Shown: positions 488-9,205 of the stretch, in pieces | How positions within the stretch are numbered: position 1 is the stretch's first letter | How the letters are laid out: each line of letters starts with the position of its first letter | Notes under the pieces: generated by a model | Seen by the model: the letters and a program-made list of their open reading frames with translations, nothing else | What the model was told of the DNA's origin: nothing | The model's database searches: none | Program-made: the position numbers and the translations under genes | Origin: a virus | DNA: 22,458 nt | Virus record (IMG/VR): IMGVR_UViG_3300042860_001281 | Span: 1 to 22,458 of that record | Reading direction: 5' to 3' (one strand)

Positions 488-736
488 ATGATTCCCTTCC
501 CGTCCCTGACAATCTCCGCCAGGATCGCCCGAATCGTCGCAATGGTTGACCGAGGCGAATGGAAGCATTCCCGGATTCCCGCCTACCGGATCCTTTCGGA
601 ATGCGAACGCCTGACCGAGGGCCGCGCCGTTTCCCTCCTGACTGACTCCGAGCGTCAATGGCTCACCGGGGTCATCGTTTGGATATCCGAGACGCTTGAG
701 GATGCCGCAAGGGGGGAAGGGGTTTACCTGGAGTGA
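488..736 (+). CDS. Hypothetical protein, 82 aa
   Basis: ATG at 488 gives an 82-residue protein. The frame is open further upstream, but that would overlap the previous gene, and the stretch from 488 reads as the natural N-terminus (MIPFPSLTISARIARIV). The second half is rich in Glu, Arg and Leu and probably helical (residues about 30-80). No known domain is recognised. It is followed by a 107-nt non-coding gap holding the first structured element. Its function is unknown; early T7-like phage genes in this position are often small host-takeover proteins, but nothing here shows that. Confidence 0.6.
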   Translation: MIPFPSLTISARIARIVAMVDRGEWKHSRIPAYRILSECERLTEGRAVSLLTDSERQWLTGVIVWISETLEDAARGEGVYLE

Positions 737-740
737 TTCC

Positions 741-812
741 CCGCCGCCCGAAACCGGCATGTAGTGCCGCCGGTCGATCCGGAGCGTAATTCCGGATCCT
801 GATGATGGGCAG
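741..812 (+). promoter_or_regulatory. Structured two-hairpin leader element, copy 1
   Basis: The conserved opening CCGCCGCCCGAAAC (741-754) leads into hairpin P1 (ACCGGC 753-758 with GCCGGT 769-774). One unpaired C (775) follows, then hairpin P2 (GATCCGGA 776-783 with TCCGGATC 791-798) around the loop GCGTAAT, then the conserved tail CTGATGATGGGCAG (799-812). It lies in the gap before the gene at 844, whose GTG follows a purine-rich stretch (826-837). The second copy at 1166-1252 keeps loop, spacer and tail but changes both stems in a compensatory way, which points to an RNA structure. The function is not shown. Antitermination, attenuation or translational control are candidates. Confidence 0.7.
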
Positions 813-843
813 TTATTCCCAGCTTGAAGGAAGGTAGAGCCAA

Positions 844-1161
844 GTGAGAACCGTAACCGCCTACACATGCTCCTCCGCGTATGAGATTCCCGAGGAGTGC
901 GTTCGGGATATCTGCCGTCCTGGCCGGAACGATGGAGCGGTCGCGTCCTGGGCCATCCGGATCGACTGGGATTCCCTTGCGGATCCCGCGACCATCCGCG
1001 CCGAGCTGGATGAGGTTGGCGCATGGTCCGAGGATGACCTGCTGGACGATGACGAGAACCGATGCCGGTTCGTTTGGGTACTGGCCTGGAACGTCCACGA
1101 TGAGCAGCGGGGGGACGATGCCATCATCGTCCGACACCTTCCCCGGGATGGCCTGACCTGA
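844..1161 (+). CDS. Hypothetical acidic protein, 105 aa
   Basis: GTG at 844 is preceded by GGAAGGTAGAG, a plausible ribosome binding site. The product is strongly acidic: by my count 23 Asp/Glu against 11 Arg, with no Lys. There is an acidic patch around residues 57-67 (SEDDLLDDDE) and four Cys residues in the first half and middle. No family is recognised. Small acidic early proteins of T7-like phages can be DNA mimics that block restriction enzymes, as T7 Ocr is, but that is only an analogy. The gene lies between the two copies of the structured element, so both it and the next gene have such a leader. Confidence 0.6.
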   Translation: MRTVTAYTCSSAYEIPEECVRDICRPGRNDGAVASWAIRIDWDSLADPATIRAELDEVGAWSEDDLLDDDENRCRFVWVLAWNVHDEQRGDDAIIVRHLPRDGLT

Positions 1162-1165
1162 CCTA

Positions 1166-1252
1166 CCGCCGCCCGAAACGGTCCCGAGGATTCCCCAGCG
1201 GATCCCGGGGCCGTCCGGCGGGAGCGTCATTCCCGCCGCTGATGATGGGCAG
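1166..1252 (+). promoter_or_regulatory. Structured two-hairpin leader element, copy 2
   Basis: This copy has the same opening CCGCCGCCCGAAAC (1166-1179). P1 pairs ACGGTCCC (1178-1185) with GGGGCCGT (1207-1214), with one G-U pair, and can extend through GGAT 1188-1191 with ATCC 1202-1205. One unpaired C (1215) separates it from P2, CGGCGGGA (1216-1223) with TCCCGCCG (1231-1238), which closes the loop GCGTCAT. The tail CTGATGATGGGCAG (1239-1252) is identical to copy 1. Stem sequences differ completely from copy 1 while pairing is kept. It leads into CAAGAAAGTAGG (1262-1273) and the ATG at 1281. Confidence 0.7.
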
Positions 1253-1280
1253 ATTCCCCAGCAAGAAAGTAGGAGACACT

Positions 1281-1487
1281 ATGAAGGCGATTATCTACGT
1301 CGAGGTGGACAACCTAGACAAGCTGGAGCGCGTTTGGGATTCCCTCCAGGCATCCGTGGAGTCCCGCGAGGTCTCGGGGTTCTTCACGCTGACCGTCAAT
1401 GGAATGGCTTGTCTCCAGGGTCACCACCGGCGGGACCTGGAGAAGCTGGCGGAAGTGCTTGAGGTTGCGGAAGGGGGTGCCAAGTGA
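1281..1487 (+). CDS. Hypothetical protein, 68 aa
   Basis: ATG at 1281 sits 7 nt after GTAGGAG, a good ribosome binding site; an in-frame upstream start at 1242 would run through the structured element and is rejected. The 68 residues begin with a beta-strand-like MKAIIYVEV and end with a charged helix (RRDLEKLAEVLEVAEGGAK). No family is recognised. Its last codons overlap the next GTG start by 4 nt (GTGA, 1484-1487), so translation is probably coupled. The junction sequence is repeated exactly at the end of the next gene. Confidence 0.65.
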   Translation: MKAIIYVEVDNLDKLERVWDSLQASVESREVSGFFTLTVNGMACLQGHHRRDLEKLAEVLEVAEGGAK

Positions 1488-1690: not shown

Positions 1691-1920
1691 AGCTCGTCTC
1701 CTCAGATTCCCGTGGGCTTGCCATCCACGTCACCGGGGCGGAACTGGATTCCCTCCTCTATCTCCTGGGGGAGGGGTGCGAACATCTCTACGCCATCTCG
1801 GGAGACGAGTTGGTTGACTCGGATACCCGGAGGAATGCGCGTACGATGATGCTCCGTGGGGAGCGCATGAGTGCGTCACTTGCGGAGATTCGGGATGACG
1901 CAAGGGCTTCCCTCCGATGA
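1687..1920 (+). CDS. Hypothetical protein, 77 aa
   Basis: GTG at 1687 overlaps the preceding stop (GTGA) and follows the same repeated ribosome binding sequence as the previous junction. The 77-residue protein has a central helix (GAELDSLLYLLGEGCEHLYA) and a basic, Arg-rich C-terminal half. No family is recognised. It is the last gene of the coupled trio. A 40-nt gap separates it from a 32-codon membrane-peptide ORF. Confidence 0.6.
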   Translation: MKLVSSDSRGLAIHVTGAELDSLLYLLGEGCEHLYAISGDELVDSDTRRNARTMMLRGERMSASLAEIRDDARASLR

Positions 1921-1960
1921 GCAATTCCACTCACCGTCCTGAGTAACCTGGACCCACCCA

Positions 1961-2059
1961 ATGGGCACCCTCATCGCCGTCTATTCCCTCCCGGTTGTCC
2001 TGCTGATCCTCTTTGCCATCCTCGGATGGATCCTGGATCCTCCCGACACTCGCCCCTAG
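1961..2059 (+). CDS. Small single-pass membrane peptide, 32 aa
   Basis: An ATG-TAG reading frame encodes 32 residues with a continuous hydrophobic segment (IAVYSLPVVLLILFAILGWI, residues 5-24) followed by a polar tail, DPPDTRP. It looks like a type I or III single-pass membrane peptide. There is no strong ribosome binding site. The evidence is the clean hydrophobic span, the position in an otherwise empty gap, and a hairpin directly after the stop (ACCCGC 2061-2066 with GCGGGT 2074-2079). It could be an inhibitor of a host membrane process or a small holin-like peptide; neither can be shown. A non-functional chance ORF is possible. Confidence 0.4.
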   Translation: MGTLIAVYSLPVVLLILFAILGWILDPPDTRP

Positions 2060-2091
2060 CACCCGCAATTCCCGCGGGTACCATTCTCTTA

Positions 2092-2179
2092 CCTACTTTC
2101 TGCCCCCTCCCAGGATTACGCCCTGGCGAGGGGGTATGTCTTTCCTGGGCTGGGTGGATTCCCGTCAGCGTTTCGGGGG
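2092..2179 (-). promoter_or_regulatory. Possible diverged, inverted copy of the two-hairpin element
   Basis: Read on the minus strand, this stretch has the landmarks of the two plus-strand elements in the same order. These are CCCCCGAAAC (2170-2179), a small stem (GCT/AGC plus GGG/CCC, 2149-2169), a strong hairpin with loop GCGTAAT (loop at 2115-2121), then GGGGGCAG and AGAAAGTAGG (2092-2107). The stem lengths and linker differ from copies 1 and 2. No convincing minus-strand gene follows, so this may instead be a plus-strand terminator whose loop happens to complement that of copy 1. Confidence 0.35.
2103..2134 (+). terminator. Strong hairpin, probable transcription terminator
   Basis: CCCCCTC (2103-2109) pairs with GAGGGGG (2128-2134), and CCAGG (2110-2114) with CCTGG (2122-2126), with one bulged C and a 7-nt loop ATTACGC. 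This is a 12-bp GC-rich stem. On the plus strand it is followed by TATGTCTTTCC, only a weak T-tract. It separates the first gene cluster from the gene at 2257 and is followed by a sigma70-like promoter, which fits an operon boundary. The same DNA can also be read as the inverted structured element. Confidence 0.5.
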
Positions 2180-2218
2180 TGCCGTAGGTGAATTGAGGGA
2201 AAGTTCCTGATTCCCCTC

Positions 2219-2247
2219 TTGACTTGATGTCTCTAGGTGGTGACAAT
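2219..2247 (+). promoter_or_regulatory. Candidate sigma70-type promoter
   Basis: TTGACT (2219-2224) and GACAAT (2242-2247) are separated by exactly 17 nt, a good match in spacing and sequence to a bacterial -35/-10 promoter. Transcription would start near 2253-2254, just before ATG 2257. It lies directly downstream of the terminator-like hairpin. T7-like phages transcribe early genes with host RNA polymerase, so a host promoter upstream of the lysogeny and RNA polymerase genes is expected. Confidence 0.5.
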
Positions 2248-2256
2248 TCCCCGCGC

Positions 2257-2442
2257 ATGACCGTGTACGAGACGAGAGCGGTGCTGTACCGGCGGATCGC
2301 CGAGCTTGAACGCCTGGTGGATTCCCTCCGGGAGGCCCTCAATTCCCCCAAGGAGCGCAAGGATGCGGATGCAGGATCTTCAGGTGGATGTGGCGGTGGA
2401 GTACCTCAGGGCGAGGGCGAGGGCGGAAGCGGGAGCCCTTGA
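2257..2442 (+). CDS. Hypothetical small coiled-coil protein, 61 aa
   Basis: ATG at 2257 was chosen over ATG 2227 because a sigma70-like promoter at 2219-2247 would place the transcript start after 2227. Residues about 5-36 form a charged heptad-like helix (RIAELERLVDSLREALNSPK). The last 26 residues are low-complexity Gly/Ser-rich and lie wholly inside the overlap with the next gene, so they may have arisen by loss of an earlier stop. The protein could be an N-terminal part of the next ORF separated by a frameshift, since both are helical and rich in Leu, Arg and Glu. Function unknown. Confidence 0.4.
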   Translation: MTVYETRAVLYRRIAELERLVDSLREALNSPKERKDADAGSSGGCGGGVPQGEGEGGSGSP

Positions 2443-2593
2443 CGTCCATCCGGACTCCATCATGCTGAACAAGGCGGCTGACCTCCTGGTCTCCCAGAAG
2501 GAAGCTCTTGCTTCCCTGCGTGAGCTGAAGGAAAGGATCGTTTCCCTCCAGCGCCAGGTTGCCGAGTACGAGTGCAGGGAGATCCAGGGATGA
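2363..2593 (+). CDS. Hypothetical helical protein, 76 aa
   Basis: ATG 2363 has an AAGGAG ribosome binding site (2350-2355) 7 nt upstream, better than the further in-frame start at 2306. The product is almost entirely helical with a predicted coiled coil in residues 45-72 (SLRELKERIVSLQRQVAEYE). It overlaps the upstream ORF by 80 nt and the downstream gene by 4 nt (ATGA, 2590-2593). No domain is recognised. The codon pattern in this frame, with high C/G in third positions, supports it over the competing frame between 2363 and 2442. Confidence 0.6.
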   Translation: MRMQDLQVDVAVEYLRARARAEAGALDVHPDSIMLNKAADLLVSQKEALASLRELKERIVSLQRQVAEYECREIQG

Positions 2594-2928
2594 TCCGGCG
2601 TCGTGTTGCACGGCTGACCCGGGATTATGGGTTGGACCCTGAAACCCAGAATCTCGAGGATGGCACCCGGAAATGGCCTACCGTTCGGTCTTTGTACGGG
2701 TACAATTCCCTCGAACGTCGCCTCGAGCGCCGGGTCATCCGGGGCTTGCTTGCGAACCCGTATTCCCGGGAGTTCCGTTTGGTGGGCCTGGACCAGTCCT
2801 TGGGGTCCGGATGGCGGGAGCAGCTTGATCGAAAGAGGCTTCGGGCCGTGCAGTACCTCGTCTGCGAGTCATGCGTGGGGGTGTCCCTGCGGCTCATGGG
2901 CGACACAATGATCGTGAGGGTCGCATGA
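2590..2928 (+). CDS. Hypothetical basic protein, 112 aa
   Basis: ATG 2590 overlaps the upstream stop (ATGA), supporting it over the longer in-frame extension from 2572. The 112-residue protein is Arg-rich throughout (for example RRRVARLTR near the N-terminus and LERRLERRVIRGLL in the middle) and ends with a probable beta segment (SLRLMGDTMIVRVA). The basic composition suggests nucleic-acid binding, which is inference only. The final ATGA at 2925-2928 couples it to the next reading frame. Confidence 0.6.
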   Translation: MIRRRVARLTRDYGLDPETQNLEDGTRKWPTVRSLYGYNSLERRLERRVIRGLLANPYSREFRLVGLDQSLGSGWREQLDRKRLRAVQYLVCESCVGVSLRLMGDTMIVRVA

Positions 2929-3350
2929 GGATTCTTGTCTCTTCCCTTCGGTTCCGCTGGGTGCATCTCGACCTCGAGACTCTTCCCGGACCGCAACTGT
3001 ACCTCAACGTCTTCCGTAAGTGGGACTTCTTCATGGACTTGCGGATGTCTCGTCGGTATGATCGTTCCCATGAGCAACGCCAAGAAGCTGCTGGGGGTGA
3101 TCCGCGTCCTTCGCTCGGTGGATCCGGAGATGCCGCTCCTGTATGCGGGGATCTTCATGGAGGTGGGTGTGAGGAGTCCGCATCCCTACATGCTGAACGA
3201 GGTCCCGGAGACCTTCGGGGTGAGCAGGGCGACCGCCAGCCGTGCCCATGCCTACCTGTCGAGCTACCTGGTGAACACGGGGCTCACCAAGAGGCCGGGG
3301 CTTGGCCTGATCCGCAGCGAGGCAAGTCCCGAGAACCGGCGGTGTCTTGA
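2925..3350 (+). CDS. Uncertain ORF with large overlap into the MarR-like gene
   Basis: ATG 2925 overlaps the preceding stop (ATGA), a strong start signal. The first 45 residues look like a real protein (MRILVSSLRFRWVHLDLETL, then a WDFFMDLRMSRRYD block). Past about residue 46 the frame runs through the MarR-like gene for nearly 300 nt and becomes Gly/Glu/Pro-rich, typical of an out-of-frame shadow. The genuine product may therefore be a short peptide that lost its stop, or one part of an overlapping pair. Function unknown. Confidence 0.35.
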   Translation: MRILVSSLRFRWVHLDLETLPGPQLYLNVFRKWDFFMDLRMSRRYDRSHEQRQEAAGGDPRPSLGGSGDAAPVCGDLHGGGCEESASLHAERGPGDLRGEQGDRQPCPCLPVELPGEHGAHQEAGAWPDPQRGKSREPAVS

Positions 3351-3417
3351 GCTGACCCTGACTGCCAAGGGGAAGGCCGTGTACGAGCAGGTGATGAACG
3401 CACTCGAAAGGAAGTAG
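3070..3417 (+). CDS. MarR-like winged-helix regulator
   Basis: The 115-residue product reads as a compact MarR-type winged helix. Helical segment MPLLYAGIFMEVG (residues 20-32) is followed by the recognition helix region FGVSRATASRAHAYLSSYL (about 48-66). The wing follows (LGLIRSEASPENRRCLELT, with the PENRR turn typical of MarR proteins) and then a final helix LTAKGKAVYEQVMNALERK. MarR proteins bind DNA as dimers. ATG 3058 is an alternative start adding four residues; neither has a strong ribosome binding site. Its place 560 nt upstream of the integrase suggests a role in the lysis-lysogeny choice, by inference. The protein lacks the N-terminal dimerisation extension of full-length MarR proteins, as phage versions often do. 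Confidence 0.75.
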   Translation: MSNAKKLLGVIRVLRSVDPEMPLLYAGIFMEVGVRSPHPYMLNEVPETFGVSRATASRAHAYLSSYLVNTGLTKRPGLGLIRSEASPENRRCLELTLTAKGKAVYEQVMNALERK

Positions 3418-3426
3418 AGGAACGAC

Positions 3427-3972
3427 ATGAAGTGGATCGTGATGGCATGGCAGAGCTGTGATCGGCAGAAGATGGACATTCCAATTCCGGGCCTGACCAA
3501 GTACCTCCAGGACAGGTGGCCGTCATCCGCGCCGTTGGAGCGCAGGGACAGGTTCATGGCTGAGGTCGAGAAGGCCCTCGGTTGTGAGGAACCGTTTGAG
3601 ATCGGGGACGACTGCATCAAGACGACGTTTCTGGATATCTATTCCCACACCGCGGTCTTCCCGGAGAGCAAGGCCCCGGTACTGGAGTACAACGACCGCG
3701 ACGAGGACATGCCGTGGGTGTGGAAAGGCGACTCTTCCGAAAAGGACTGGAAGTATGGGGGGACGGTCTTCGAGGTGCAGGAGTGCTCCAACCTCGACGA
3801 GGCCCGCCGGGCTGCCAAGTCTCTTGACAAGCGGTGCGAGAAGGACGCTTCGGACAAGACGGACATTGAGGCCGAGGATGCCCTCAAGCGCCTTGAGCAG
3901 CATTGGGGCAACCTGATGGACAAGGTCCCCGGCCTTCCGGTTCCACGCGAGTTCCCCGAGAAGGTGGCCTGA
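3427..3972 (+). CDS. Hypothetical protein, 181 aa
   Basis: ATG 3427 follows AGAGGA (spacing 7). The product is acidic and rich in charged residues, with several Trp residues (DEDMPWVWKG near residue 95) and a long charged helix at about 130-165. No signal peptide, membrane segment or known motif is seen. The stop at 3970-3972 is followed 2 nt later by the integrase ATG, so the two are probably one transcript. It occupies the position where an excisionase or immunity protein might sit, but it is too long and has no helix-turn-helix that I can see. Function unknown. Confidence 0.65.
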   Translation: MKWIVMAWQSCDRQKMDIPIPGLTKYLQDRWPSSAPLERRDRFMAEVEKALGCEEPFEIGDDCIKTTFLDIYSHTAVFPESKAPVLEYNDRDEDMPWVWKGDSSEKDWKYGGTVFEVQECSNLDEARRAAKSLDKRCEKDASDKTDIEAEDALKRLEQHWGNLMDKVPGLPVPREFPEKVA

Positions 3973-3974
3973 CC

Positions 3975-5033
3975 ATGCCGGTGACCAAGCGAAACAACTC
4001 ATGGCAGGCGTCGGTGATGCACGGCGGCAAGCGTGTGCGCTACTCCTTCAGGACCGAGCAGGAGGCCCGGGTGTGGGAGAAGGAGGCGGAGCTTGCGGTG
4101 GTGAAGGGGATCTCCCCGCCGCCCAGGGAGATGGTCGAGACTCCCTCGGGGAAGGTCTTGAGGCCCCTGATCGAGCTCTACCGCCTGACCCACCAGACCC
4201 GGTGGGCGTCGTGCTGGAGCGATGCGATGACCGAGCTCGGGCTGCGGGTCACCAAGGAGCTCGGTGAGGACACCGACGTCTCCACCATCGACTTCGGGAG
4301 GATCGCGTCCTGGATCGGTGACCTCCGCAAGGAGGGCCTGACGCAGGCGACGATCAACCGCAGGCTGTCCGCGCTTTCCACCATGCTCACGGTGGCGAGG
4401 CGGATGGGATGGATCTCGGAGAAGCCCCAGATCCCTCTCTCGAAGGAGGCCCGCACGGAGCGGCGCTACCTCACCTTCGAGGAGGAGCGGATGATCCTGT
4501 CTCAGCTCGAGGGCCGGCGCGAGTGGGGACTGGTGGTGGTGGCTGCGGACACGGGGCTCCGCATCGGGGAGCTGGTCTCCCTGAAGTGGCGCTCGGTGAG
4601 GCCCGAGAGCGTGACGGTGGAGAAGTCAAAGAACGGGAGTGCCCGGACGGTCCCGCTGACCAAGCGTTCCCGCGAGGTCATCATGGGGATTCCCCGGGAT
4701 GGCGATGGCCCGTTCTGCGGGATGAACCCCCATGAGGCCAGCCGGCGGTTCAAGGCTGCTGCCGTGGCGGCGGGGATCCTGGACAAGGGTGTCGTCTTCC
4801 ATTCCCTGCGGCACACCTGCGCCTCGAGGCTGGTGCAGGCGGGGGTGGACCTGATGCGGGTGAAGACCTGGATGGGGCACAAGGCGGTGGCGACGACCTT
4901 GATCTATGCCCACCTCGCTCCGCAGTCGCTATCGGACGTTGTGTCACGGTTGGATGAGTGCATCGGAGAGAAAATCTCCTGCGAAATCGGTGACACAATC
5001 TGTGGCAGAATTGGCACACTTTCGGCGGGGTGA
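3975..5033 (+). CDS. int: Tyrosine recombinase (phage integrase)
   Basis: This 352-residue enzyme carries out site-specific integration and excision at attP/attB. The N-terminal part (residues 7-45, SWQASVMHGGKRVRYSF) resembles the arm-binding domain, and residues about 65-160 fit the SAM-like core-binding domain. The catalytic domain has the expected set: R196 in DTGLRIGEL, K219 in SKNGSARTVPL, H276 and R279 in HSLRHT, H302 in MGHK, and nucleophile Y311 in TTLIYAHL. All are present, so the enzyme should be active. Its 3' end contains candidate arm sites and is followed by the tRNA-Leu attachment core, the usual int-attP arrangement. The int-RNA polymerase order matches integrase-carrying marine T7-like phages. 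Confidence 0.96.
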   Translation: MPVTKRNNSWQASVMHGGKRVRYSFRTEQEARVWEKEAELAVVKGISPPPREMVETPSGKVLRPLIELYRLTHQTRWASCWSDAMTELGLRVTKELGEDTDVSTIDFGRIASWIGDLRKEGLTQATINRRLSALSTMLTVARRMGWISEKPQIPLSKEARTERRYLTFEEERMILSQLEGRREWGLVVVAADTGLRIGELVSLKWRSVRPESVTVEKSKNGSARTVPLTKRSREVIMGIPRDGDGPFCGMNPHEASRRFKAAAVAAGILDKGVVFHSLRHTCASRLVQAGVDLMRVKTWMGHKAVATTLIYAHLAPQSLSDVVSRLDECIGEKISCEIGDTICGRIGTLSAG

Positions 5034-5276: not shown

Positions 5277-7682
5277 ATGGGAAAGATCAGCCAGCGTGAG
5301 CTTGACCTCGAGTCCTACGAGCGGGGCCGCAAGCGGTACTACCGCAACGTCCGAAGGGCGATGGACAAGGGGGTGGAGAGCGAGAGCAACTGGGGGGCTC
5401 GGATGGTCGAGAGCGCCATCCTGCCGTTCTCGGACCGCCTCAAGACCGTCATGGAGACCGACACCGGGGTAGGGGCGGTGCTCCTCAAGAGCCTCGGGCT
5501 GGCCCCTGAGGTCATGGCGATGATCGCCTTCCAGAGCCTCCTCGACGGGTGCTCCAAGAACAAGACCTTCACCCGGGGCTGCATCGAGGCGGCCAAGGCG
5601 GTGCAGGCGGAGGCCATCGCCAAGCTCCTCCGCAAGGAGAGTCCCGAGAAGTTCGAGACCTACAACATGTGGATCCACCTCCGGGGGACCCAGCGCAAGT
5701 CCAAGGACATCAAGCGGATCGCCTCCTACACCCACCCGGAGATCGTCGAGAAGTTCGCCTGGACCGACGAGGAGTCCCTCAAGGCCGGCTACGTCCTCGC
5801 CATGACCGCCTGCGAGGCCACGGGCCTCCTCGAGCGGGTGACCTACAAGCGGTCCGCACGGCACACCGTCGCCGCCCTGGCGATGACCAAGGAGGCATGG
5901 GCCTACGCCCACAAGGCGATGCGCCACGCAGAGACCCTGCGCCCCGTCAAGCTGCCGATGGTCGTGCCTCCCCGCAAGTGGGTCAACCCCGACGACGGCG
6001 GCTACGAGCAGGGCCTCGGTGACTCCCTTGTCCGTGGTTCCTCCAAGGTCGCCAAGGCAAGCCACACGAAGGAGGCGATGCCCCTTGTCTATGACGCCAT
6101 CAACGTCATCCAGCACACCCCCTTCCGGGTGAACCAAGGGGTCCTCGCGGCTGCCCTTGCGCTCATGGAGAGCCGTTCGCCCATCGGTGACCTCGACGTC
6201 CATGAGGAGACGCCGATGCCTGAGCGACCGCCCGAGGCTGACCTGAAGACCCGCAACCTCGACCAGTTCCTCACCCTGCGGCGCTACTACATGGACTGCA
6301 CCCGGATTGCCGAGAACAACCGGAGGATCTCCTCGCGCCGCCTCGGGGTGATCCAGACCATCAACCTCGCCGTGAAGTTCGCCTCGGAGAAGGACCTGCG
6401 GTTCTTCCACGCGGCTGCCCTCGACTTCCGTGGGAGGTTCTACTGCCAGGCCACGGGCCTCTCCCACCAGGGCAACGACCTCCAGCGGGGCCTCATCGAG
6501 TTCGGCCTCGGGCACCCCGTGCCGCCCAAGAGCGAGGCCATGCAGGCGTGGCTCCGTCACGGTGCCGCCGTGCTCGGCAGGAAGGGCACCCTCGAGGAAC
6601 GTGCCGGCGTCATGCACTCCATGATCCGCTCCGGGGAGATCGACGCCATCGCCAAGGACCCGCTCTCCACGGTTCACCTCTGGGGCAAGGCCGACGAGCC
6701 CTTCTCCTACCTGGCGTGGTGCCTCGACATGCCCTTGGTCCGCGCCGGCAAGCCATCGCACCTGATGGTCGCCGTGGACGGCAGCTGCAACGGACTCCAG
6801 GTCCTCAGCCTCCTCCTGAAGGACGAGGTCGGTGCCGCCGCGGTCAACGTCATTCCCTCCGACCGCCCGAGCGACATCTACCAGATGGTCGCTGACCGGA
6901 CGATGGTTCGCATCCGGGATGCCGCAAGGCTCGGGGAGAACTTCGCCCGTGAGTGGGAGGCCCTCGGGGTCAGCCGCTCGATGGTGAAGCGCCCGGTCAT
7001 GTGCCTGCCGTACTCGATCAGCCAGCGGTCGGCCATGCTCTACCTGAAGGAGGCGTACCTCGAGAACCACCGGGACGGCCCGTGGATGGACCCGAGCAAG
7101 CCCTGCGGGTTCCTCATCCGCAAGGTGTGGCCGAGCATCGGGGAGATCGTGGTGAAGGGCACCCAGTTCCTCGACTGGGCACGGAAGGCAGGGCAGGTCA
7201 TCGTCAATGCCGGCATCCACCCCATGTGGGTAACCCCGGACGGCTTCACGGTGCAGCAGTCCTACTACTCCTACGAGCCCTCGAAGGTGAAGACCACCCT
7301 CGGGAAGCAAGCGCACATTTGGCAGATCCGAAACCAGACCGCCAAGATCGACCGCAGGAAGCACGTCAACGGCATCGTTCCGAACCTCGTCCACAGCCTT
7401 GACGCGACGGCTGCACGGATGACGGCGAGACGACTGGTCGCGGCCAAGATCCCGGACATGGCGTTCGTCCACGACTCCTACCTCGTCCACGCCGCGTTCC
7501 AGCCGGTGCTTGCCCATGAGCTGCGCGAGGCGTGGATCGACACGTTCGAGGGTGACCCCCTCAAGGACTGGATGCGGCAGATTGAGGCGCAGCTCCCGAA
7601 GGGGTTCACGCTCCCGGAGCCCCCGGGCTACGGCAACCTCGACATCACGCAGCTGCGGAACTCAAAGTATTTCTTTGCTTGA
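5277..7682 (+). CDS. T7-like single-subunit RNA polymerase
   Basis: The 801-residue protein is a little shorter than the 883-residue T7 enzyme and transcribes the phage middle and late genes. The N-terminus QRELDLESYERGRKRYYRN aligns with the T7 segment of the same type. Polymerase motifs are complete: catalytic D501 in VAVDGSCNGLQ, K571 and Y579 in VKRPVMCLPYS (T7 K631 and Y639), and D733 in FVHDSYLVH. DFRGRFYCQ near residue 382 matches the T7 DxRGR block. The C-terminus KYFFA resembles the functional FAFA end of T7. ATG 5277 is the first in-frame start and has a weak ribosome binding site. It lies directly after attP, so integration would place it at one prophage end. Confidence 0.97.
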   Translation: MGKISQRELDLESYERGRKRYYRNVRRAMDKGVESESNWGARMVESAILPFSDRLKTVMETDTGVGAVLLKSLGLAPEVMAMIAFQSLLDGCSKNKTFTRGCIEAAKAVQAEAIAKLLRKESPEKFETYNMWIHLRGTQRKSKDIKRIASYTHPEIVEKFAWTDEESLKAGYVLAMTACEATGLLERVTYKRSARHTVAALAMTKEAWAYAHKAMRHAETLRPVKLPMVVPPRKWVNPDDGGYEQGLGDSLVRGSSKVAKASHTKEAMPLVYDAINVIQHTPFRVNQGVLAAALALMESRSPIGDLDVHEETPMPERPPEADLKTRNLDQFLTLRRYYMDCTRIAENNRRISSRRLGVIQTINLAVKFASEKDLRFFHAAALDFRGRFYCQATGLSHQGNDLQRGLIEFGLGHPVPPKSEAMQAWLRHGAAVLGRKGTLEERAGVMHSMIRSGEIDAIAKDPLSTVHLWGKADEPFSYLAWCLDMPLVRAGKPSHLMVAVDGSCNGLQVLSLLLKDEVGAAAVNVIPSDRPSDIYQMVADRTMVRIRDAARLGENFAREWEALGVSRSMVKRPVMCLPYSISQRSAMLYLKEAYLENHRDGPWMDPSKPCGFLIRKVWPSIGEIVVKGTQFLDWARKAGQVIVNAGIHPMWVTPDGFTVQQSYYSYEPSKVKTTLGKQAHIWQIRNQTAKIDRRKHVNGIVPNLVHSLDATAARMTARRLVAAKIPDMAFVHDSYLVHAAFQPVLAHELREAWIDTFEGDPLKDWMRQIEAQLPKGFTLPEPPGYGNLDITQLRNSKYFFA

Positions 7683-7760: not shown

Positions 7761-8396
7761 ATGAAGAGAGCATTTCAGCAGGTCACGACCCCCGCAGGCA
7801 TCCTCCAGTACCCGGCGCTCATCGAGCCCGACACCCGGTTCGACGCCTCCGGGGTCTTCAAGACCAACATCGTGATCCCCGCCGGCGAGGGAGCCGACGA
7901 CCTCGAGGAAACCCTGACGAACGCCCGGACCGCGTGGCTTGCCTCATGCGCCAAGGAGTCCGGCGGCAAGAAGGTCAAGGTCAACGAGGCGCTCCCCTGC
8001 TCCCGGGACGACGAGAACAACCTGGTCGTCAAGGCGAAGCTCCCGTTCCAGGTGAACACCAAGAGCGGCAAGAGCTGGCAGCAGAAGCCCGCGCTGTTCG
8101 ACGCCAAGGGCCAGAAGGTTGACACGACCAACCTCCGGATCGGCAGCGGCACCCGTGCCCGCCTCGCGCTTGAGATCAGCACCTACAACCAGCCGGCGAC
8201 CGGGGCCGGGATCAGCCTCCGCCTCCGCGGGGTGCAGCTCATCGAGGTCGTGGAGCCCAAGGGCAGCAGCGCCGGCGACTTCGGGTTCGGTTCCGAGGAA
8301 GGGTTCGTCTCGGAGACCTTCGACAACTTCGAGGATGACCCCAAGCCGGTCAAGGCCGCTGCGGGTGGCAAGAAGGTCAAGGCCCAGGACTTCTGA
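7761..8396 (+). CDS. Single-stranded DNA-binding protein (gp2.5-like)
   Basis: The 211-residue protein (T7 gp2.5 has 232) coats single-stranded DNA and coordinates polymerase and helicase at the fork. The N-terminal part (VTTPAGILQYPALIEPDTRF then FKTNIVIP) matches the OB-fold start of this family, in which a lid and beta barrel follow. The C-terminus carries an acidic stretch (ETFDNFEDDP) and ends in a terminal Phe (AQDF), the residue used in T7 gp2.5 for contacts with the polymerase. A basic segment, GGKKVK, between the acidic stretch and the end is less usual. The gene follows the RNA polymerase, as in related phages, and is joined to the next gene by a one-base overlap. Confidence 0.88.
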   Translation: MKRAFQQVTTPAGILQYPALIEPDTRFDASGVFKTNIVIPAGEGADDLEETLTNARTAWLASCAKESGGKKVKVNEALPCSRDDENNLVVKAKLPFQVNTKSGKSWQQKPALFDAKGQKVDTTNLRIGSGTRARLALEISTYNQPATGAGISLRLRGVQLIEVVEPKGSSAGDFGFGSEEGFVSETFDNFEDDPKPVKAAAGGKKVKAQDF

Positions 8397-9205
8397 TGGA
8401 TCCCTTCCGAATCCCGCAGCCTGCCATCGTCAGCTTCAGCGGTGGCAGGACGAGCGGATACATGCTCCGTAGGGTCATCGACGCCTACGGCGGATCTCTT
8501 CCGCCAGAGGTGGAGGTCGTCTTCTGCAACACGGGCCGGGAACATCCAGCGACGTACGAGTTCATCGAAGCGGTGTCGAGGAACTGGGGCTGCCCTGTGC
8601 GGTGGGTTGAGTGGACACCTGAGCGTCCGTTCGTGCGTGAGGTGTCTCCCCAGTCCGCCGACAGGGAAGGGAAGGTGTTTGCTGGGTTGATCGGGAAGAA
8701 GCGGTATCTACCGAACCCGATCACCCGGTTCTGCACCAGCGAGATGAAGGTCCTGGCAGTTCGTCGGTTTTCGAAGCACACCCTCGGATGGGATGCCTGG
8801 ACGACTGCGGTTGGCATCCGTGCGGATGAGCCTCGGCGTGTCGCCAAGATCAAGGATCACGGCGACGAGGTCAAGGTCTGTCCTTTAGCCCGCGCCGGGG
8901 TCACCGCGTCGGAGGTCAACGAGTTCTGGAAGGCATCTGACTTCGACCTCGGGTTCCCTCCTGGCGACAACTCTGCCGGCAACTGCTTCGGGTGTTTCCT
9001 CAAGAGCCGAAAGACGCTTGAGCGCCTGATCGCTGAGGATCCGGAACGCATGAAGTGGTGGGTTGGGATGGAGGACTTGGTCGGTGCTCGGTTCAGGAAG
9101 GACATCCCCACCTACAAGCAGATGCTCCAGCAGGTCTCGATCCAAGGAGTCCTGTTCGACGGGCCAGACACGGAGGGCATCGCTTGCGGTGCTTGTACTG
9201 ACTAA
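8396..9205 (+). CDS. PAPS reductase-like N-type ATP pyrophosphatase family protein
   Basis: The 269-residue protein has the N-type ATP pyrophosphatase loop SFSGGRTSGYML (residues about 14-25). It also has a CNTGREHPATYEF segment and CTSEMKV (about 116-122), the signature order of the phosphoadenosine phosphosulfate reductase superfamily. A cluster of Cys residues near the C-terminus (NCFGCF and ACGAC) could bind metal or an iron-sulfur cluster. Family members act on sulfate activation, tRNA or DNA thiolation, or nucleotide modification; which applies here is unknown. It is inserted between two replication genes and overlaps both by one base (TGATG, TAATG), so it is co-translated with them. 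Phage copies are common but uncharacterised. Confidence 0.85.
   Translation: MDPFRIPQPAIVSFSGGRTSGYMLRRVIDAYGGSLPPEVEVVFCNTGREHPATYEFIEAVSRNWGCPVRWVEWTPERPFVREVSPQSADREGKVFAGLIGKKRYLPNPITRFCTSEMKVLAVRRFSKHTLGWDAWTTAVGIRADEPRRVAKIKDHGDEVKVCPLARAGVTASEVNEFWKASDFDLGFPPGDNSAGNCFGCFLKSRKTLERLIAEDPERMKWWVGMEDLVGARFRKDIPTYKQMLQQVSIQGVLFDGPDTEGIACGACTD

Follow-up and report, generated by a model that had tools for sequence, protein, structure and literature searches.

The early mRNA of phage T7 is cut between cistrons by RNase III, which leaves hairpins at the mRNA ends. Unlike hammerhead ribozymes, the RNase III sites depend on a host enzyme, and they share neither sequence nor structure with the ribozymes; they are at most similar in their working to the elements described here and are not relatives of them. 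Type II hammerheads (Rfam RF02276, Hammerhead_II), a known class of self-cutting RNA, are closer. In Perreault et al. 2011 (PMC3088659), they are presented with a permuted topology and a full core, in sense orientation between phage genes and in serial copies, and mRNA processing by phage hammerhead arrays is already proposed. The same text reports in vitro cleavage for three arrays; the array from A. tumefaciens, located beside ardA, marR and an integrase gene, also cut in E. coli. As depicted in Figures 3, S2 and S3 of that article, the A. tumefaciens triple array resembles the locus studied here in that small genes preceding an integrase gene have hammerheads on either side, and differs from it in the genes between the ribozymes. 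With its ardA, marR and integrase context it is similar to the lysogeny module found in temperate T7-like phages (PMC10134795; phage Pasto): MarR and integrase genes have been described in the early region of RNA polymerase-bearing T7-like phages (PMC10134795), and the gene order in Pasto is ArdA, HTH protein, integrase, RNA polymerase. It may be that the tested A. tumefaciens array, too, comes from a T7-like phage of this type. Our search of the open literature, which does not prove absence, found no paper joining hammerheads with T7-like phages or Autographiviridae. The hammerhead class itself is already known and the copies reported here are new members of it; their recurrence in integrase-carrying T7-like phages appears to be previously undescribed.

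Two type II hammerheads in the early region of a T7-like phage

The DNA analyzed (IMG/VR record IMGVR_UViG_3300042860_001281, 22,458 nucleotides, in the following termed the window) is part of the genome of a T7-like phage; the plus strand carries the genes, in an order resembling that of T7. Besides an integrase and a T7-type RNA polymerase, the window encodes SSB, primase-helicase, DNA polymerase, exonuclease, head-tail adaptor, scaffold and capsid proteins. The best RNA polymerase match among named phages was approximately 31% identical, and no named phage is close. A phosphoadenosine phosphosulfate reductase-like gene (8396-9205) lies amid the replication genes; it is present in some close relatives and missing from others.

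A first-pass annotation made from the sequence alone had reported two copies, at 741-812 and 1166-1252 on the plus strand, of an undescribed element composed of a leader CCGCCGCCCGAAAC, a hairpin P1, one unpaired C, an 8-bp hairpin P2 with the loop GCGT(A/C)AT, and a tail CTGATGATGGGCAG. Both copies were re-found at exactly these coordinates and with this layout. The landmarks GAAAC...GTC...CTGATGA gave the architecture away: the leader GCCC pairs with the tail GGGC to form stem II, giving a three-way junction and not two separate hairpins. P1 corresponds to stem III, P2 to stem I, and the unpaired C to C17, the cleavage-site nucleotide. As judged from the sequence, both elements are type II hammerhead ribozymes of family RF02276. 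The features of the locus are as follows.

488-736, plus strand: small gene without PHROG match, conserved in relatives; its stop lies 4 nt 5' of copy 1
741-821, plus strand: hammerhead copy 1 with leader and tail (Rfam match 746-818)
746-749, plus strand: copy 1, stem II 5' strand GCCC, partner 807-810 (folding, alignment)
750-752, plus strand: copy 1, core G12 A13 A14 (invariant in the clade alignment)
753-774, plus strand: copy 1, stem III hairpin, A15.1 to U16.1
775, plus strand: copy 1, C17, with predicted cleavage 3' of this base
776-798, plus strand: copy 1, stem I hairpin of 8 bp with loop GCGTAAT at 784-790 (covariation)
799-805, plus strand: copy 1, core CUGAUGA, C3 to A9
807-810, plus strand: copy 1, stem II 3' strand GGGC, preceded by the extra U 806
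806-821, plus strand: copy 1, tail; UGGG (806-809) is able to pair with CCCA (818-821) in place of stem II
844-1161, plus strand: small gene (105 aa) separating copies 1 and 2; matches phrog_14450, a family of unknown function, weakly
1166-1260, plus strand: hammerhead copy 2 with leader and tail (Rfam match 1171-1258)
1171-1174, plus strand: copy 2, stem II 5' strand GCCC, partner 1247-1250
1178-1214, plus strand: copy 2, stem III hairpin
1215, plus strand: copy 2, C17, with predicted cleavage 3' of this base
1216-1238, plus strand: copy 2, stem I hairpin of 8 bp with loop GCGTCAT
1239-1245, plus strand: copy 2, core CUGAUGA
1246-1260, plus strand: copy 2, tail with GGGC (1247-1250, stem II 3' strand); UGGG (1246-1249) may pair with CCCA (1257-1260)
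1281-1487, plus strand: small gene (68 aa) 3' of copy 2
3903-5033, plus strand: tyrosine integrase (context)
5277-7682, plus strand: T7-type RNA polymerase (context)

In hammerhead numbering, each copy has the order GCCC-GAA-[stem III hairpin, A15.1...U16.1]-C17-[stem I, 8 bp]-CUGAUGA-U-GGGC. The catalytic core (C3 U4 G5 A6 N7 G8 A9, G12 A13 A14, H17) is complete in both window copies, and an extra U separates A9 from stem II. When each copy was folded as RNA, all three stems were recovered, with predicted free energies for the two copies of -9.1 and -25.2 kcal/mol for stem III and -12.3 and -15.5 kcal/mol for stem I. Loops close stems I and III while stem II is open, as expected for the type II topology.

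An Rfam search of the window at gathering thresholds gave no match, nor did the type III hammerhead model match the window. When the threshold was lowered on an 800-base stretch, Hammerhead_II was revealed as the top match with 32.0 bits (E = 1.7e-4) and 31.3 bits (E = 2.7e-4), below the gathering cut-off of 37; the next-best Rfam matches on that stretch had E values of 4.7 or worse. Homologous copies in two relatives scored above the cut-off (38.7 and 37.9 bits), so the element cannot be called undescribed. The Rfam cut-off passes over many phage copies that look genuine. A strict type II descriptor matched twice in the window versus once in 400 sequences of equal length simulated with a Markov model; the pair of elements is not a chance product. 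The window copies differ from RF02276 not only in their scores, but also in having no clear pseudoknot between loop I and the 3' tail, in the extra U after A9, in a tail hairpin specific to the clade of the window, and in their carrier, a T7-like phage that encodes an RNA polymerase itself.

Covariation and invariant core

The stems were evaluated in an alignment of 24 distinct copies, all from the phage clade of the window. The fraction of paired cells was 99.0% (83.4% in shuffles), 70 cells were changed on both sides (22.1 in shuffles), and the covariation score was 0.405 (0.117 in shuffles); for each of these values, 0 of 500 shuffles was as high, with the proviso that the aligned rows share kinship and the pair counts are not independent events. 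When the partner was slid by 1-3 columns as a control, at most 43.5% of the cells were paired. Stems I and III covary, and the A15.1-U16.1 pair was kept in 24/24 copies. In agreement with the earlier claim of selection on RNA structure, changes in the stems were compensated by their partners. Stem II (GCCC/GGGC) and the leader contact described below are invariant in the clade apart from one G-U, and the pair counts are silent on both; in other phages, stem II varies with pairing retained (GGTC/GACC, TTCC/GGAA, ACGC/GCGT). N7 is the only hammerhead core position that tolerates any base, and in the 24 copies all core bases were invariant except N7, which was T, C, A or G. Sequence, structure and covariation together establish the ribozyme identity.

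The invariant positions also bear on the earlier analogy with the HK022 put RNAs, and on the corresponding reading in which the elements would act on the host RNA polymerase as antiterminators. The comparison takes up the single base that separates two stem-loops; it leaves CUGANGA, GAA, the A-U pair closing P1, the single C and GCCC/GGGC unexplained, all of which are the hammerhead core, and this core accounts for every invariant position. We therefore give a put-like function next to no credence. What stood of the first-pass annotation is the selection on RNA structure and the placement before small early genes: it had spotted a conserved structure correctly and missed the ribozyme class.

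Gene context

Gene calls agreed that the elements precede small early genes. In the clade, copies begin 0-15 nt past the upstream stop codon, always on the sense strand, and wherever a downstream gene was called its start codon lies 26-34 nt beyond stem II. The copies are thus preceded by a stop codon and followed by a Shine-Dalgarno site, and they lie upstream of the integrase and T7-type RNA polymerase genes.

The gene content of the slot between copies 1 and 2 differs among close relatives, and the flanking genes are kept. This pattern would be expected if the elements were passive marks or remnants of early-gene cassette exchange, conserved as recombining ends, and if their cleavage mattered little. 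Were DNA homology the only thing under selection, the catalytic bases would not stay invariant while the stems change and keep their pairing, and we regard such an origin of the conservation as highly improbable.

The hexamer ATTCCC occurred 26 times in the first 3.6 kb of the window (sites within 91-2767), on the plus strand only, versus approximately 2.7 expected; its reverse complement was found 0 times in the same 3.6 kb, and ATTCCC itself 5 times in the remaining 19 kb. The sites fall in each of the three frames as well as in intergenic stretches, and the zone reaches about -37 in the near-identical contig L037. ATTCCC is present in sense orientation in every version of the accessory slot (window 820-1160; L005, L001, L011, L016 and L024). 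Compared with L043, in blocks of 85-88% identity, it was intact at 10/12 sites versus 729/1161 hexamers overall. It was also the top hexamer in L024, L009, L156 and L021, and not in L040/L041. ATTCCC is possibly an oriented binding site for a protein or RNA.

Distribution in relatives and other phages

A scan of viral sequences with a pattern built on the window copies gave 33 contigs, 31 of which were judged sound: 25 passed the script, and in the other 6 stem III is interrupted by an internal loop (a relaxed descriptor confirmed three; the remaining three, near-identical in sequence, were judged by eye). A clade-specific pattern found 17 contigs. The element thus has further copies; these keep to a single orientation and a single part of the genome, unlike a mobile repeat. 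None of the outcomes that the first-pass annotation had named as refuting it was encountered. The same exact pattern gave 40 matches in 84,980 cellular species genomes, 0 of them with hammerhead stems; thus, no integrated relative or host was found.

Close IMG/VR relatives (RNA polymerase 71-100% identical) contained 2-4 copies each where the early region was covered; some contigs end early. A relative of 44 kb has four copies within 2.5 kb (26.8-29.2 kb), followed by the integrase at 30.6 kb and the RNA polymerase at 32.1 kb; the rest of the record gave no match, except for an extra pattern match at 14.8 kb that had no Rfam support. T7-like phages of another, distantly related lineage, likewise with an integrase, repeat this layout. 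Six such contigs (G018, G019, G026, G027, G030 and G033), with RNA polymerases 25-28% identical where compared, carry 1-2 hammerheads upstream of the integrase and then the RNA polymerase on the same strand (G030 read as circular). Among 24 integrase-less contigs picked by RNA polymerase alone, there were 0 hammerheads. Among four integrase-bearing contigs picked by RNA polymerase, G052 had two sound copies and none was detected in the other three. These counts, to which some fragmentary contigs contribute, suggest but do not prove that the hammerheads are tied to integrase-carrying T7-like phages. In two named temperate T7-like phages, Pasto and HTVC019P, the regions scanned for type II hammerheads contained none. 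A candidate between two early genes of HTVC019P (L171, 990-1025; CTGACGA-GGAC...GTCC-GAAAC) was rejected as a partial core with unrecognizable stems I and III.

Hammerheads were also present in unrelated phages. A phage contig of 76 kb has ten hammerhead matches (L022, 8264-10755; G028, 73000-75507 and 1717-4501), one before each small gene in the part examined.

Copy number bears on the reading that the ribozymes free the intervening RNA for ligation into a circle, so that the gene at 844-1161 would be present as a stable circular RNA or mRNA. In the window, one gene is indeed flanked by two direct copies, and the ends of a hammerhead cut, a 2',3'-cyclic phosphate and a 5'-OH, are chemically suited to ligation into a circle. 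Against this, copy numbers are 2-4 in the clade and 1-10 elsewhere, with single-copy contigs included, and Perreault et al. (PMC3088659) sought circular or spliced products of phage arrays without success. A circular product is thus very unlikely in our judgment.

Loop I contacts and tail hairpin

A pseudoknot between loop I and the 3' tail is common in type II hammerheads, though not universal. In the clade of the window it was mostly ≤3 bp or none, and in several other phages 5-6 bp. In the 76-kb phage, loop I GGTGGT can pair with the tail GCCATC. Loop I of the clade copies has another potential partner: in 24/24 copies its GCG is complementary to a CGC in the leader, and both are nearly invariant. 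As read from the sequence, this is possibly a loop I/5'-leader contact, a 5' counterpart of the published 3' pseudoknot. Either the extra U after A9 or the weak loop I/tail pseudoknot could lower activity.

In all 24 clade copies, UGGG in the tail can alternatively pair with CCCA (-1.2 to -4.2, mean -3.5 kcal/mol). The GGG...CCC tail pattern was present in 23/24 clade copies versus 0/19 other phage copies. Stem II is the main link between the products of cleavage; the competing tail hairpin could therefore drive their release or, alternatively, serve as an off switch.

An off switch would be part of a regulated system in which the tail hairpin and a ribosome terminating on the leader decide cleavage, and cutting reports translation. 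The competition between UGGG/CCCA and stem II, conserved in this clade alone among the copies compared, speaks for it, as do the nearby stop codons, at which a terminating ribosome should cover the 5' strand of stem II, given the size of the ribosome footprint. However, the tail hairpin is weak, and stem II was retained in the minimum free energy fold of both full uncut window copies; the tight spacing may merely mirror a compact genome, and the hairpin could equally aid product release. We consider such a switch unlikely. Likewise unlikely is a broader reading in which temperate T7-like phages have a control layer of self-cleaving RNA to themselves, made up of hammerheads between early genes whose folding competes with the tail hairpin and with the ribosome terminating on the upstream gene.

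Proposed role in early mRNA processing

It is likely that the ribozymes cut the early polycistronic mRNA between cistrons and leave a hairpin on both new ends. Sense orientation, intercistronic site and early location fit a processing of the early transcript into hairpin-ended mRNAs. The integrase-carrying T7-like phage would transcribe its early genes as one polycistronic RNA, and each ribozyme would fold on emerging and then cut itself after C17, at 775 and 1215. Owing to the type II topology, the upstream mRNA would receive the stem III hairpin and a 2',3'-cyclic phosphate at its 3' end, and the downstream mRNA the stem I hairpin and a 5'-OH at its 5' end, 66-69 nt ahead of the start codon. 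Hairpins flush with both ends would slow exonucleases and 5'-end-dependent decay. The early cistrons would thereby be separated and stabilized without a host enzyme, an outcome that T7 achieves via RNase III sites. As many T7-like phages have no such ribozymes, the processing role is not essential to the lifestyle.

If the control layer considered above were true, translation-dependent cutting of the early mRNA would help to balance integrase and lysogeny genes against the phage RNA polymerase. The T7-like group with its two lineages offers a clean setting for testing the role of hammerheads in bacteria and phages; T7 with its RNase III sites provides a ready comparison for cut versus uncut early mRNA.
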